Origin: Flavicella sp.
GTDB lineage: Bacteria; Bacteroidota; Bacteroidia; Flavobacteriales; Flavobacteriaceae
Direction: 5' to 3'
Assembly (NCBI RefSeq): GCF_029238425.1
Contig: NZ_JAQWGB010000017.1
Location: 1-64,000 of the forward strand
Length of the DNA stretch: 64,000 bases
Of this stretch, positions 40,142-60,762 are shown one piece after another. Positions within the stretch are counted from its first letter, which is position 1. Every line of letters starts with the position of its first letter. The notes beneath the pieces are model-generated. The model saw only the letters and a list, made by a program, of their open reading frames with translations. It did no database searches and was not told where the DNA came from. The translations under genes and the position numbers were made by a program.

Positions 40142-41407
40142 CTATTTTATAATTAATTTTGATTTATAGGACTTTCCTTCACTTGTGATAGAAACAATAT
40201 AAACTCCAGCGTTTATATCTGAAACTGTTATCACGGTACTAGTGCTTTTTGCTTGAGTTGAGTAAACTGTTTGTCCTGCTAAGTTTAGAATAGAGATATT
40301 ACTATCTATATCGGTAGAAATATGAACAACTTCGGCAGCAGGATTAGGATAAATAGAAACATTCTCAAGTCTATTATCTTTTGAAGAAGCGGTAGATGCA
40401 TCAACGACTTGAATATTATCAACATACATCAAAGAGTTTGTATCTCTACCATTGGAAATTAAATTATACCCATCCGCAATATTTTCTGAACTTACCGTAA
40501 TGGTTGGTGATTGAACTGTGTTCCATTGGTCTTTCGCAAGATTATCCGCTAGAGTAATTGTGAAGTTATTTGATGGATCTTTAACATTGAATTTTAAATA
40601 TTCAGGAACCGTATTAGCTGCAGGTATATAGACATCCGCTGTAACATACCAATCTCCAGTTGCTAGATCTAATTTTGAGTTGGCAGGAGAACTACTACCC
40701 GCACCTTGCATTTTGTTATCTCCGATACCTGCAGCTGCATCAAATTTGGCACTATATAAACCTGTTTTAACAGTAGTGTTATCAAAAGCCCAATGCGTGT
40801 CATTCTGAATATACCAACCTGTAACTGTTGAATTTCCGTTTGCATTTGGTTCCATAACACCAAACTCTCCATCGTCCGCAGATTCAAATCCTAGAAAATC
40901 TTCTAATTCCGATGGTGATACAGTGAAAAATTCAATTTCTTTGATAAAGATAGCACCTTCCCCTTCAGTATATCCACTTCTAAATTGTAACAGAATTACC
41001 TCACTTGCATCATCCCATGCTGTTGCACCCGACAAATTCAAGTATATATTTTCATAGCCTGTAGTCGTAGAAATAGTCATGGAAGTATTGTTATCATCAA
41101 CACCTGAAGTTGCTTTCAAACGTAATTGAGTTGCTCCCCCTAGATTTTTATAATTAATTCTTAAATAGTTTTTTGCAGTAGCATCTACGGTAGCTGGATC
41201 GGCAGGTGCTGCCAGTTGTAATGAGTTATTAGCATTTGTTCTAACATATTCCAATGCATCTTCTGTTGCGTTATAGGTTGCAGATGAATTAAAGGAACCA
41301 TTCCAACCAACTACTTCGGTTTCAAAATTATATAATTGAGACTGCAAAGGAATTAGGGTGAAAAGAGTAATAGCGGTTGCTATAAATAAGTGTAATTTTA
41401 ATTTCAT
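40142..41407 (-). CDS. Secreted protein with carbohydrate-binding-like modules and T9SS sorting domain
   Basis: Signal peptide; C-terminal 'VSIYPNPAAEVVHIST...GVYIVSITSEGKSYKSKLIIK'. Confidence 0.85.
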   Translation of the reverse strand: MKLKLHLFIATAITLFTLIPLQSQLYNFETEVVGWNGSFNSSATYNATEDALEYVRTNANNSLQLAAPADPATVDATAKNYLRINYKNLGGATQLRLKATSGVDDNNTSMTISTTTGYENIYLNLSGATAWDDASEVILLQFRSGYTEGEGAIFIKEIEFFTVSPSELEDFLGFESADDGEFGVMEPNANGNSTVTGWYIQNDTHWAFDNTTVKTGLYSAKFDAAAGIGDNKMQGAGSSSPANSKLDLATGDWYVTADVYIPAANTVPEYLKFNVKDPSNNFTITLADNLAKDQWNTVQSPTITVSSENIADGYNLISNGRDTNSLMYVDNIQVVDASTASSKDNRLENVSIYPNPAAEVVHISTDIDSNISILNLAGQTVYSTQAKSTSTVITVSDINAGVYIVSITSEGKSYKSKLIIK

Positions 41408-43725: not shown

Positions 43726-44628
43726 ATGATTGAGAAAATTGTCGATTTAGGAAAAAGAATAAAAATACCGGGTTTAGAGGGAATGTCCCTTTATGATTTG
43801 TTGCATATGTATGTAGTTGGGATTGTTCGTGGTGGATTGACATCAAGGGCAGGAGGTATTTCTTATAGTTTTTTTATGGCTATTTTCCCTTTTATGCTTT
43901 TTATGTTGACCTTGATTCCCTTTATTCCTATTGATGGTTTTCAGGCTAGTTTTATGGAACTTATTTCTGAGGCCGTTCCACCAAAAACCTATGATGCTGT
44001 AGTCCCAATTTTAGAGGATATTGCGAATAATAAATATGGAGGTTTGCTGTCTTTTGGTTTCCTAGTTTCTATTTTTTTAATGACCAATGGAATCAATGCC
44101 ATTTTCGGGGGATTTGAATATTCCTACCATGTTACTGAAGTAAGAAGTGTGGTAAAAGGTTATATAGTTTCTCTTGGGACTTCATTGTTAATGTCGGTTT
44201 TACTGATTGTAACCGTTGTGTTTACGATTTCCTTTAAATTTGGGCTTGATTTTTTAATGCAAAATGGTTGGTTGAGTGATCAATATATTTGGTTAGGGAA
44301 TATCAGATACTTGATTTTTATTTTTATGATATTTACTACAGTGTCTTTGCTGTATTATTTTGGAACTAAGGAAGGAAAACAATCCTCATTTTTTTCTCCG
44401 GGCGCCGTCTTGACAACTATATTGTACGTCTTTACTTTTTACGGGTTTGGGATTTATGTAGAAAAGTTTGCAAAGTACAATGAATTGTATGGCTCCATTG
44501 GTACCTTGTTAATTATGATGTTGTTTATTTGGTTGAATTCTATAATATTACTGCTTGGTTTTGAGTTGAATGCGAGTATGACTAAGTTAAAGAATACTTC
44601 CAAAGACAATGATTTTTTGACGATATAA
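43726..44628 (+). CDS. YihY/virulence factor BrkB family protein
   Basis: 'LTSRAGGISYSFFMAIFPFMLFMLTLIPFIP', multiple TM helices. Confidence 0.93.
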   Translation: MIEKIVDLGKRIKIPGLEGMSLYDLLHMYVVGIVRGGLTSRAGGISYSFFMAIFPFMLFMLTLIPFIPIDGFQASFMELISEAVPPKTYDAVVPILEDIANNKYGGLLSFGFLVSIFLMTNGINAIFGGFEYSYHVTEVRSVVKGYIVSLGTSLLMSVLLIVTVVFTISFKFGLDFLMQNGWLSDQYIWLGNIRYLIFIFMIFTTVSLLYYFGTKEGKQSSFFSPGAVLTTILYVFTFYGFGIYVEKFAKYNELYGSIGTLLIMMLFIWLNSIILLLGFELNASMTKLKNTSKDNDFLTI

Positions 44629-44708: not shown

Positions 44709-46589
44709 ATGAAACCTAACAACCACCTTCTTTTATGTAGTTTGTTGACTACACTTTTTTCGAATGCGCAAATAGATGCAGAAAGTAATTTTTACACTGC
44801 AATAAGCAATTCAAATCATGATAAAAATATAGTAACCGACTATTCTGTGGATAATGATTTTGACACAGATGACAGCGTTGCTTGGCAAACTGCTATTGAT
44901 GATATTTCAGATAATGGAGGTGGAGTTTTAACAATTCCAGCAGGGAATTACACTATTCGAAATATTGACTTAAAATCAAATGTACATATTGAAATTGATC
45001 CAGATGCTATCATCAGACCCTTTCAAGTTGATGATGGAAAGAATTATTCAATTTTTAAATTGGCAGATGGAAAGGAAAGAATTTACAATGTAAGTATTAT
45101 ATGTTCAGATCTAACGGGGTTAGAAGAAGGACATATTTGTGATGCATCGGAAGCAGGACGTTATACGGTTGATTTAACTCAGGTGGTTAACAATAATGTG
45201 ACAGTCTTTGCAATTCGAAATGCAGAAAATTTTTTAGTAGCCGATTTTCATGTAAATGATGTGTATACAGATTTTTCAGCTGTCACTTTGGGTACAACCA
45301 AAGTTGGTGGCTATTCTGATGGGACGATTAAAAATACGTTGACAGGTACAGACACAGAAATATTGGCAGCCTTTGATTTGGCATTGGCCATGGATTCAGA
45401 TTATTCGATAAATGTGACTACGGTTCATAACACACACATTGCTTCTATAGAAAGTTTAATTCCTGTAAACGATCAACAGAATGCAAAAGATATGTTAGCT
45501 CCGATTATTCAAGATTTGTCGGATGAACTAGACGAAATTGCTGGAACAGCGAGCCTTCCGGGAAATGATACCAAAGAAGAATTGATAGGTTATTATGTAG
45601 ATCGATTGGAGAATTATATGATTACCATGGTGAACAGATCAGAGGTGTCTACAAATTATTTTATGCCATTGAACGGAATTGTAAGATCTGGTAGTGTGTG
45701 CAATGCAGCCTATGGTTACGGGACTATTCAATCACAAGCGGCAACAAATGTTTTGTTTAAAGATTTATATGGTTTTGGAGGAGCCACATTACGTTTAGAG
45801 ACGGGGTACAGTAAGATGAATAATGTACAATATGGAGGTAACTTTGATATTGTTGCTAGAAATATATACAGTGAACAAGGGAATTCAACTTTAATGATTT
45901 CTCCGCATGCTATGCATTGTGGAGCTGTGGATGCAGAAGGAATACGTTCTAAGGGTAGTGGCTTCGATGCACGAATAGAAGGTGGTTTTATTTCTAAAAA
46001 ATATTGTCAAGATGTTGGATTGGAGATAGGGACTTATAGTTATGTGAAAGTAGTGGATGTTGATGCAGAATTTGGAATGGTTGCTCAATTGAAATCAAAG
46101 CATTTTTATTTAATGCCAGATGAGTTGGTAGATGACATCACCGATATTTCACAGGATGGAGGAGAGAGTGTCATAGGGCCTTCGATTGCTACAGCGGTGA
46201 ACGATGCCAATTATATTTGTTCTGATTCAGGTGAACAGAATGTCTTTTTAGAAGATGTTTCTCAAGTTGGTTTTGAATTTCAAGAACCAGTTGTCCCAGA
46301 AGAACATGTTCCAATTGTTTGCGATAATTTGTCTGTTGGTGAAATTGATACTAATGTTAAAAGTTTTATTGCTTACCCTAATCCAAATAAAGGTTTGCTT
46401 ACTGTAAAATCTGAAGAAAATGGAATACTTCGAATAATGAATTTATTAGGGACAGTATTGAGAGAAGAATCTATAGAAGACATACATGAACCTAAAATAT
46501 TAGATATATCATATTTACCTTCCGGAATGTATATTGTCGTGTTCGAAGGAGAAACAACAAGGGAAACACAATATCTTTTTGTGAATTAG
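44709..46589 (+). CDS. Secreted GH82 (iota-carrageenase)-like beta-helix protein with T9SS sorting domain
   Basis: 'DNGGGVLTIPAGNYTIRNIDLKSNVHIEIDPDAIIRPF', 'NGIVRSGSVCNAAYGYGTIQSQAATNVLFKDLYGFGGATLRLETGYSKMNNVQYGG', 'MISPHAMHCGAVDAEGIRSKGSG'; C-terminal 'FIAYPNPNKGLLTV'. Confidence 0.72.
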   Translation: MKPNNHLLLCSLLTTLFSNAQIDAESNFYTAISNSNHDKNIVTDYSVDNDFDTDDSVAWQTAIDDISDNGGGVLTIPAGNYTIRNIDLKSNVHIEIDPDAIIRPFQVDDGKNYSIFKLADGKERIYNVSIICSDLTGLEEGHICDASEAGRYTVDLTQVVNNNVTVFAIRNAENFLVADFHVNDVYTDFSAVTLGTTKVGGYSDGTIKNTLTGTDTEILAAFDLALAMDSDYSINVTTVHNTHIASIESLIPVNDQQNAKDMLAPIIQDLSDELDEIAGTASLPGNDTKEELIGYYVDRLENYMITMVNRSEVSTNYFMPLNGIVRSGSVCNAAYGYGTIQSQAATNVLFKDLYGFGGATLRLETGYSKMNNVQYGGNFDIVARNIYSEQGNSTLMISPHAMHCGAVDAEGIRSKGSGFDARIEGGFISKKYCQDVGLEIGTYSYVKVVDVDAEFGMVAQLKSKHFYLMPDELVDDITDISQDGGESVIGPSIATAVNDANYICSDSGEQNVFLEDVSQVGFEFQEPVVPEEHVPIVCDNLSVGEIDTNVKSFIAYPNPNKGLLTVKSEENGILRIMNLLGTVLREESIEDIHEPKILDISYLPSGMYIVVFEGETTRETQYLFVN

Positions 46590-47025: not shown

Positions 47026-48126
47026 ATGAAAATAGGCATATTGAAGGAAACACAAAAAGGTGAAAAACGTGTCGCAATCTCTCCTAACATTGCGAAGCAG
47101 TTAGCATCTAAAGGATTTGAGTTGTTGTTAGAAGAAGATGCAGGAAAAACATCTTCATACAAGAATTCAGATTACAAAGAAGTAGAGGTAAAAGTAGAAA
47201 AAAGAGGAGTTGTTTTTAAAGAGTCTGATGTGCTTGTAAAAATAAATCCTTTTGACGAAGAAGACCTTAAACTAGTTGACAAAGGACAGATATTGGTAAG
47301 TCAATTGTACCATAAGTCCAGTCCAGAATTGATTCAAGCAATTGCAGAGAAAGGAGCTACAGCCTTTTCGTTAGATGCAATTCCTAGAATTTCTAGAGCG
47401 CAAGATATGGACGTTTTGAGTTCTCAAAGCAACTTAGCTGGTTACAAAGCGGTTATCTTAGGGGCTTACGAAATGACTAAGATTTTTCCATTGATGATGA
47501 CAGCTGCCGGAACGATTACTCCTTCTAAGGTATTAATTTACGGTGTTGGTGTTGCTGGATTACAAGCGATTGCTACTGCGAAAAGACTAGGAGCTGTAGT
47601 TGAGGCAACAGATATTAGAACAGAAACTAAGGAGCAAGCGGAATCTTTGGGGGCTAAATTTATTTCGGTAGAGAATTCAGGAGAAAAATCTGAAGGAGGC
47701 TATGCAAAAGAAGCTTCTGATGATTACAAGAAAAGACAAAAAGAAGCGGTTGATAAATCTTTATTTCAAGCTGATTTAGTGATCACTACTGCAAACATTC
47801 CAGGTAGAAAAGCTCCTGTATTGATAACAGAAGAGCAAGTTTCTCAAATGAAAAACGGGGCTGTGATTGTTGATTTAGCTGCTGCCCAAGGAGGAAACTG
47901 TGAGGTAAGCGAGATGAGTAAGACTGTTGTTAAAAACGGTGTGAAAGTTATTGGAACTACGATTGCTCCAGAAAGTGTATCTACAAATGCAAGTGAATTA
48001 TTTGCAAAAAACATTTATAATTTCTTGAATCATTTAACTGAAGACAATCAGTTTAAATATGATGTTGAAGAAGAAATCACTGATGAAACACTGATCGTAA
48101 AAGACGGTACAATTAGAAAAAAATAA
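47026..48126 (+). CDS. pntA: NAD(P) transhydrogenase subunit alpha part 1
   Basis: 366 aa; 'MKIGILKETQKGEKRVAISPNIAKQL', 'VLIYGVGVAGLQAIATAKRLGAVVEATDIR'. Confidence 0.95.
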   Translation: MKIGILKETQKGEKRVAISPNIAKQLASKGFELLLEEDAGKTSSYKNSDYKEVEVKVEKRGVVFKESDVLVKINPFDEEDLKLVDKGQILVSQLYHKSSPELIQAIAEKGATAFSLDAIPRISRAQDMDVLSSQSNLAGYKAVILGAYEMTKIFPLMMTAAGTITPSKVLIYGVGVAGLQAIATAKRLGAVVEATDIRTETKEQAESLGAKFISVENSGEKSEGGYAKEASDDYKKRQKEAVDKSLFQADLVITTANIPGRKAPVLITEEQVSQMKNGAVIVDLAAAQGGNCEVSEMSKTVVKNGVKVIGTTIAPESVSTNASELFAKNIYNFLNHLTEDNQFKYDVEEEITDETLIVKDGTIRKK

Positions 48127-58881: not shown

Positions 58882-60762
58882 ATGAATGACAAAAAGAATA
58901 GTATGAAGATCAATTATTATGTAGTGATGATAGCACTTTTTTTAGGTGTAAAGGGGAGTTCCCAATCACAACCCAATATATTATGGATCGTTACAGATGA
59001 TCATCGAGCAGATGCATTGGCATGTTTTAATGAAGCAACTACAGGAGAAAAAGAAAGTGCTCTTGGATATGTATCCTCTCCCAATTTGGATCAGTTGGCA
59101 AAAGAAGGAGCTTTGTTTGTGAATGCCTTTTGTAATTCTCCGGCATGTGGACCTTCTAGAGGTTCTATGCTCAGTGGGAGATATCCTTTTAAATCTGGAC
59201 ATTATTCTTTCAATCCAACGCATCAAGCTCCAGATTTTACAAAACCTACTTTTCCTCAAGAATTACAAAAGAGCGGATATAATACAGCTTTATTTGGAAA
59301 AGATGGCTGCTACATTTTTCAATGGGGACCTGGACAAGGTTTTAAAAATGCGCATCATTACAATTCATCTGTTAGTTTCAAACACGATTTGCAAAAGCAT
59401 GATATTGGTGATTTTTGGAACCAACCTGTTTATTTGAAAAATACCTGGAAAAATTTAGGAACTGAAGAACGTGTGAAGTATCCAGATGGAACGATTGAAA
59501 ATTATTTTATCAGTAAAAAAGAAGGTGAAATATCTGATGAAGATAAAAAATTAAAGAAAAGGATTGAAAAAGATTATGAAATATTACGTGCTTATAAAAG
59601 GTACAATAAAGATTTGATCATTGGTGGTCAAAATCCACTTCCTGCAGGAGAAACCATTGATGCAAAAATAGTAGAGGAGTTTCAGAGTTATTTAGAGAAT
59701 CAAGATGGTAGTTATAAAACAACTTGGGGAGAAAACAGAAAGGGAGCGGAGTCTGGCAAGCCTTTGATGATAAACTTAGGTTTTCATTTACCGCATACGC
59801 CTGTATTACCTCCAAAGTCATTTAGAGATACATTTAAGAAAAAAAGCTACAGAGTTCCTGATTTTGATGCGAAAGATTTGAATAAGTATACACCTCAAAT
59901 GAAAAAACTGTATAAAAACTTGAATATGCATGAGATGTCTTATGAAGATAAGATACAGGCAATTCAAGATTATTATGCATTCTGCGCTTATGGGGATGCC
60001 TTGATAGGTGAGGCGGTGAATTCATTTAAAAAATATTGTAAAAAAAATAACCAAGAATATTTGATTCTATTTACAGTTGGAGATCATGGTTGGCATTTGG
60101 GCGAGCAGGGTATTGAAGCTAAATTTGGTCCTTGGGAGAAATCAACCAAAGGTGCGATGATTTTGGTTTCATCTGATACATCAAAAGTGCCACAAGGGAT
60201 AGTCCAAAATCAATTGATAGAATATGTTGATATTGCACCAACATTGTTAAAAACGGCTGGTGTTTCGATAGAGAAAAAACAATATGACTATTTAGATGGA
60301 GTCGATTTGTATGAATTTGTAGGGAATGATAAAGAAGTTCGCGAATACGTATTAGGAGAAATTCATTTGGTTGCTGGTCCGAGAGCTTATTTAAGGTGCA
60401 AAGATTTTGCTTTTTCTATGCGAACGAGGCCCCAAAGGAAATTAACTCCCAACCAAAATGTAAAATGGGCCTTAGAATGTTCTGTAAAAGAAGCCGAATT
60501 GGCCTTGTATGATTTGAGAAATGATCCTAACGAAAGAAAGAATGTTGCGACTGATAAAAAATATAAAAAGTTGGCGACTTGGTTTCGAGAAAAACTTGGG
60601 AATATTGTTCTTGGAGATGGAAGAATTGAGTGTGATTGGTCTCAAGAAAACACCTATAAGAAAAGTGATTTTGCAAAAGGTAGTGATGATAAAAAATTAA
60701 TAATTCCTAAAAAAATAATTCCAAAAATTCAGATAGGAATAAAACAAAAAAACCTCGAATAA
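58882..60762 (+). CDS. Secreted type I sulfatase
   Basis: 'PNILWIVTDDHRADALACF', formylglycine motif 'CGPSRG' (C-x-P-S-R), 'FTVGDHGWHLGEQGIEAKFGPWE'; start could be 58903. Confidence 0.93.
   Translation: MNDKKNSMKINYYVVMIALFLGVKGSSQSQPNILWIVTDDHRADALACFNEATTGEKESALGYVSSPNLDQLAKEGALFVNAFCNSPACGPSRGSMLSGRYPFKSGHYSFNPTHQAPDFTKPTFPQELQKSGYNTALFGKDGCYIFQWGPGQGFKNAHHYNSSVSFKHDLQKHDIGDFWNQPVYLKNTWKNLGTEERVKYPDGTIENYFISKKEGEISDEDKKLKKRIEKDYEILRAYKRYNKDLIIGGQNPLPAGETIDAKIVEEFQSYLENQDGSYKTTWGENRKGAESGKPLMINLGFHLPHTPVLPPKSFRDTFKKKSYRVPDFDAKDLNKYTPQMKKLYKNLNMHEMSYEDKIQAIQDYYAFCAYGDALIGEAVNSFKKYCKKNNQEYLILFTVGDHGWHLGEQGIEAKFGPWEKSTKGAMILVSSDTSKVPQGIVQNQLIEYVDIAPTLLKTAGVSIEKKQYDYLDGVDLYEFVGNDKEVREYVLGEIHLVAGPRAYLRCKDFAFSMRTRPQRKLTPNQNVKWALECSVKEAELALYDLRNDPNERKNVATDKKYKKLATWFREKLGNIVLGDGRIECDWSQENTYKKSDFAKGSDDKKLIIPKKIIPKIQIGIKQKNLE

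Follow-up and report, generated by a model that had tools for sequence, protein, structure and literature searches.

The window, which is the whole stretch of 64,000 nucleotides that we analysed from Flavicella sp., contains a gene for a secreted protein related to the iota-carrageenases of glycoside hydrolase family 82 (GH82). It is a loner gene, flanked by yihY and pntA; we assigned these names, as well as the name of the nearby nadC, by sequence recognition. The features of this site are:

43726..44628, + strand: YihY-like membrane protein, the upstream flank (named by sequence recognition)
44709..46589, + strand: GH82-related secreted protein, 626 amino acids, intact open reading frame (phmmer and AlphaFold model)
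44709..44771, + strand: putative signal peptide MKPNNHLLLCSLLTTLFSNAQ, read from the sequence
45315-45659, + strand: whole insertion, residues ~203-317, about 115 amino acids (alignment with relatives)
45339..45644, + strand: helical insert, very probably derived from ThrA, residues 211-312 (ThrA HMM, genome searches, and models)
45714..45731, + strand: GYG..Q motif with Gly336, Tyr337, and Gln341 (Gly217, Tyr218, and Gln222 of Alteromonas fortis), with little or no variation across the family alignment
45792..45806, + strand: Arg362 and Glu364, both retained (Arg243 and Glu245 of A. fortis), and Gly366 at the Asp247 position (alignments)
45906..45908, + strand: His400 (His281 of A. fortis; alignments)
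46374..46571, + strand: type 9 secretion system (T9SS) C-terminal sorting domain, residues 556-621 (PF18962 from Pfam, 39 bits, E = 9e-10)
47026..48126, + strand: transhydrogenase alpha / alanine dehydrogenase-like protein, the downstream flank, conserved in congeners

A sequence-only reading of this DNA had described the protein as T9SS-targeted, which the sorting domain confirms, and as not adjoining a SusC/SusD pair. Indeed, the window contains no SusC-sized open reading frame; its largest open reading frames encode Lon, a topoisomerase-like protein, and an fn3/MAM protein. A T9SS-tailed secreted protein with no other strong domain match is encoded on the opposite strand, 3.3 kb from the GH82 gene (40142-41407), and a sulfatase gene lies beside threonine biosynthesis genes about 12 kb downstream (58882-60762).

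The same reading had suggested a relationship to GH82 from sequence segments, and the segments that it quoted are all present in the open reading frame. Both homology and fold show that this is a true GH82 relative. In phmmer searches, the only strong matches in the PDB were the iota-carrageenases of A. fortis (E = 3.4e-34 for 1h80/1ktw and 4e-34 for 3lmw), and the remaining matches were weak and involved pectinase-like beta-helices and the sorting tail. The AlphaFold model, which used an alignment of 29 relatives, is a right-handed beta-helix of the GH82 type (mean pLDDT 82), and its best five matches in the PDB are all GH82 structures from A. fortis (3lmw_B has TMt 0.79 and rmsd 2.4). With these matches, the GH82 relationship is a tested one. 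Searches of the protein against Pfam and NCBIfam did not return a GH82 match; apart from the T9SS tail, they detected just pectinase-type stretches, which were partial. A phylum-wide profile search gained few further members.

The protein lacks the domain A lid of the A. fortis enzyme: in the phmmer alignment, residues 429 to 431 span about 50 A. fortis residues. Domain A is not a defining feature of GH82, as it is also absent from members in Paenibacillus, Microbulbifer thermotolerans, and Pseudoalteromonas atlantica (PMC9788395). Activity has been reported for some of the proteins without domain A, and none of them is described as having a large helical insert (PMC9788395; we compared them by description).

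The sequence-only reading had also noticed Gly in place of a catalytic Asp. This holds: LRMETD of A. fortis aligns with LRLETG (with an offset of +27, these are Glu245 and Asp247), so that Gly366 occupies the position of Asp247, which has been proposed as a catalytic partner in A. fortis, and we found no Asp elsewhere in register in the A. fortis alignment. A mutagenesis study described a Gly, a Tyr, a Gln, an Arg, a Glu, and a His as highly or strictly conserved at subsite -1/+1 and did not list Asp247 (PMC3669377). All six of these residues that we tested are retained (Gly336, Tyr337, Gln341, Arg362, Glu364, and His400). Among the 32 aligned proteins with a letter at the Asp247 position, including the one from the window, 20 have Gly, 9 have Asp, 2 have His, and 1 has Trp. 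Because this position varies, Asp247 does not define GH82, and because Gly is typical for a large part of the family, the change says little about activity. Many of the Gly-type proteins are encoded beside sulfatases and GH150 or GH110 in degradation loci. Taking the change as a hint of a non-catalytic protein was therefore an over-reading, and with Gly the commonest state among the relatives, we dropped the idea as the main story. In one Asp-type GH82 branch (L019, L021, L022, and L055), the position of His281 has Trp (QPWGA). An unusual catalytic mechanism has reportedly been described for a Microbulbifer enzyme, going by the title of a 2011 paper by Hatada.

The site itself is conserved. 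The order nadC-yihY-(GH82)-pntA is also found in two congeners, G002 and G239, and yihY-pntA in G391; G239 conserves nadC-yihY-pntA together with a nearby thrA. A GH82 gene was not detectable at the yihY-pntA site in G239, G391, G401, or G400 (where the site is on a short contig). The yihY-pntA gap of G002 (contig C6; L133:4320-5000) holds a frameshifted and internally deleted GH82 pseudogene, whose signal peptide lies in a different frame; after a frameshift and SNFYT, its short N-terminal piece skips directly to the C-terminal region with the T9SS tail. Since this remnant is at the syntenic site, a GH82 gene was probably already there when G002 and the host diverged, and it was lost or broken elsewhere.

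This history raises the main rival to the reading that we prefer: the protein might be a decaying or non-catalytic descendant, perhaps a surface binding protein, from a loner GH82 gene that is being lost, with the insert tolerated under relaxed function. What places it first among the rivals is the pseudogene in G002, together with two features of the window's copy. First, residues retained by close relatives have been replaced in it (Asn450 and Cys471 by Asp, Arg474 by Val, and Pro481 by Ser). Second, its branch in the tree is longer, at 0.93, than those of the insert-free relatives (0.31-0.63). However, the 1.9-kb open reading frame is intact, none of the six active-site residues has been lost, the signal-like N-terminus and the T9SS tail are still in place, and the codon-position composition within the insert is still coding-like. 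We consider decay to be unlikely, if quite credible.

If the protein is an active enzyme, then its relatives' neighborhoods suggest a substrate. The closest intact relatives (45-50% identity) are from G002, G385, and G182 (L038, L039, and L040), and like the window protein they are of the Gly type and lack domain A. Unlike it, they have no insert, and rather than being encoded by loners, they lie within loci that encode sulfatases and GH2, mostly with GH110 and GH150 as well. GH110 and GH150 are each present in the relatives' loci of G385, G182, and G085, and the locus in G002 has GH27. A characterised lambda-carrageenan utilization locus has the gene set GH150, GH110, GH2, and S1 sulfatases (PMC12549532). 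Given these neighbors of the orthologues, a lambda-type substrate is more likely than iota. The G002 genome also contains some eight or more GH82-like genes in one array (contig C5, 130-180 kb; L045), several of them in tandem and of the Gly type where examined.

The host genome (3.3 Mb) has 80 matches to sulfatase domains, which is an unusually high density. Contig C26 of the host (L120) encodes two GH150 proteins, GH110, sulfatases, an AraC-like regulator, and a hybrid sensor-like protein, and is probably the host's locus for lambda-carrageenan. GH82 is absent from the stretch of this locus that was read.

Alternatively, the protein could be an ordinary iota-carrageenase with the insert as a lid, and the lambda-type neighborhood of its relatives could be misleading. 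GH82 has been reported to be active on iota-carrageenan only (PMC12549532), iota-carrageenases that lack domain A are known (PMC9788395), and carrageenase genes of Z. galactanivorans are likewise loners (PMC5698469). Against this, the closest relatives are in loci with GH150 and GH110, and neither family is encoded in the Asp-type GH82 loci that we inspected (L046, L051, L052, L054, L055, and L056). We think that an ordinary iota-carrageenase is distinctly improbable.

The most unusual feature of the protein is the insertion. The sequence-only reading had put it at about 85 extra residues; it is real, but it is about 115 residues long, and it is related to ThrA instead of being a random loop. 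Relatives carry 1-15 residues where the window protein has 115 (residues 203-317), with the exception of one other kind of relative. When we used the complete protein to search the host genome, residues 209-312 matched an open reading frame of 817 amino acids on the same contig. This is ThrA (aspartokinase I-homoserine dehydrogenase), with AA_kinase, ACT, and homoserine dehydrogenase domains; its gene lies on the opposite strand, at a distance of about 18 kb from the one for the GH82 protein. Across the genomes of 60 relatives, the insert matched only open reading frames of 817-852 amino acids, in all six same-genus genomes and in two others, and the best match outside of itself was to ThrA from its own genome (E = 3.3e-7). 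The host and same-genus loci were confirmed to be thrA, and the others are ThrA-sized.

Profile comparisons corroborate this. Against a profile of 24 ThrA segments, the insert scored 29.2 bits, while the best of 20,000 shuffles scored 12.5 and 16.1 in two runs. Against an HMM of the six ThrA proteins from the genus, it scored 36.8 bits, whereas 20,000 shuffles reached 11.3 at best. With the genus HMM, the full-length GH82 protein scored 32.1 bits, aspartokinases from other branches scored from 29.1 down to 8.9, and the best of the non-aspartokinases among 861 open reading frames scored 6.1. hhalign of the insert against ThrA gave 93.7%. In a tree, the insert falls on the genus-ThrA side of a 97/99 branch relative to other ThrA proteins, although the insert itself has a saturated branch (length 10). 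The insert and the N-terminal helical segment of ThrA align almost colinearly across some 100 residues, and both the LIPIDKQS-like region and that of the invariant His can be discerned. The alignment begins at the SALGGTTD position of ThrA, after the KFGGTS strand. The kinase active site (KFGGTS and so on) and the remainder of the enzyme are missing, so the insert is not a kinase.

The insert was seen in just one genome. An assembly chimera is unlikely, as the insert is no closer to any ThrA that we saw than 22-25% identity, is in frame at both ends, and has flanks that are syntenic within the genus. Another genus has a different insert at the same site: G052 (C87; L043) encodes two tandem GH82 proteins with a 199-residue, probably helical, insert. 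In the tree, the G052 and window proteins pair as sisters (97/84), each on a long branch, but phmmer, hmmsearch, and hhalign gave no sequence support for a shared origin of the two inserts. This suggests that the loop accepts inserts more than once.

The low identity, the saturated branch, the lack of any match above the cut-off when the insert alone was compared to Pfam, NCBIfam, and the PDB in single-sequence searches, and the unrelated insert in G052 would all fit with an unrelated helical insertion whose similarity to ThrA is a coincidence, but this is very hard to reconcile with the margins over the shuffle and open reading frame controls, the 60-genome search, the hhalign result, and a near-colinear match to the same helices as in ThrA. 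We conclude that the insert is very probably a captured helical segment of ThrA, and we infer that the donor was the thrA of the cell's own lineage.

Structure predictions suggest where the captured segment sits. In the model with only GH82 proteins in the alignment, the insert forms four helices, with low confidence (pLDDT 45-73). A model of the insert with a ThrA alignment had pLDDT 90.7, and its top match in the PDB was aspartokinase 3c1m (TM 0.71, rmsd 2.0), which is partly circular as the ThrA alignment was supplied. We did not use a combined GH82 and ThrA alignment for a single model, as MAFFT misaligned the ThrA sequences relative to the columns of the insert. The beta-helix in the model has repeating short strands: VTL (192-194), IQS with Gln341, ATLRLE with Glu364, STLMIS just before His400, and FDARIE. 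The ThrA segment follows the VTL strand, one coil before the strand with Gln341. In A. fortis, domain A comes after a strand of the same kind, the equivalent of FDARIE. By strand register, the two would flank the same groove from opposite ends. Because the bundle comes after the strand just N-terminal of those with Gln341, Glu364, and His400, it is probably a wall or lid of the groove.

We propose that the protein is a Gly-type GH82 hydrolase that acts on a carrageenan-like galactan, perhaps of the lambda type, with the captured ThrA bundle as a groove wall; we give this an even chance of being correct. The protein would be a secreted, T9SS-routed, beta-helical glycoside hydrolase from the Gly-type part of GH82 that lacks domain A. 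A segment of same-genus ThrA, the four-helix part of the aspartokinase without the kinase active-site motifs, would have been inserted in frame, and its helices would provide the substrate groove with a wall or lid, which is the role of domain A in A. fortis, from the other end. The enzyme would still cut a carrageenan-type sulfated galactan, with Glu364 as the acid and with Gln341 and His400 assisting the water, and the substrate would more likely be lambda-type than iota. The activity and the substrate are the weakest links in this explanation. The sequence-only reading had missed both the aspartokinase origin of the insert and the lambda-carrageenan-type context of the orthologues.

Compared to CgiA of A. 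fortis (1h80, 1ktw, and 3lmw), the window protein shares the beta-helix fold and the Gly-Tyr-Gln, Arg-x-Glu, and His residues. It differs in having Gly for Asp247, in lacking domain A, and in carrying the ThrA-derived insert, which is placed several coils upstream of where domain A would be. GH82 itself, the loss of domain A, and the variation at Asp247 were already known or are ordinary, so as far as we checked, it is the captured ThrA segment that is new. No paper in the literature that we searched mentions a carrageenase and an aspartokinase together, so a ThrA fragment built into a secreted polysaccharide enzyme is apparently unreported.

To our knowledge, it is rare that the origin of a domain inserted into a carbohydrate-active enzyme can be traced. 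Here what is very probably a fragment of a housekeeping enzyme is found in a secreted polysaccharide enzyme, and since both the recipient (GH82) and the donor (ThrA, still in the same genome) can be identified, domain capture can be tested. For the family, Asp247 is often absent while the remaining catalytic-site residues persist, and a sub-branch of GH82 occurs in loci of the lambda-carrageenan type, which runs counter to the present statement that iota-carrageenan is the family's only substrate. More speculatively, and we doubt that all of this will hold, a branch of GH82 may have shifted from iota-type to lambda-type hydrolysis without the Asp, and may have gained lids independently, from a piece of thrA in this bacterium and from a different, helical-looking insert in the sister protein of another genus.
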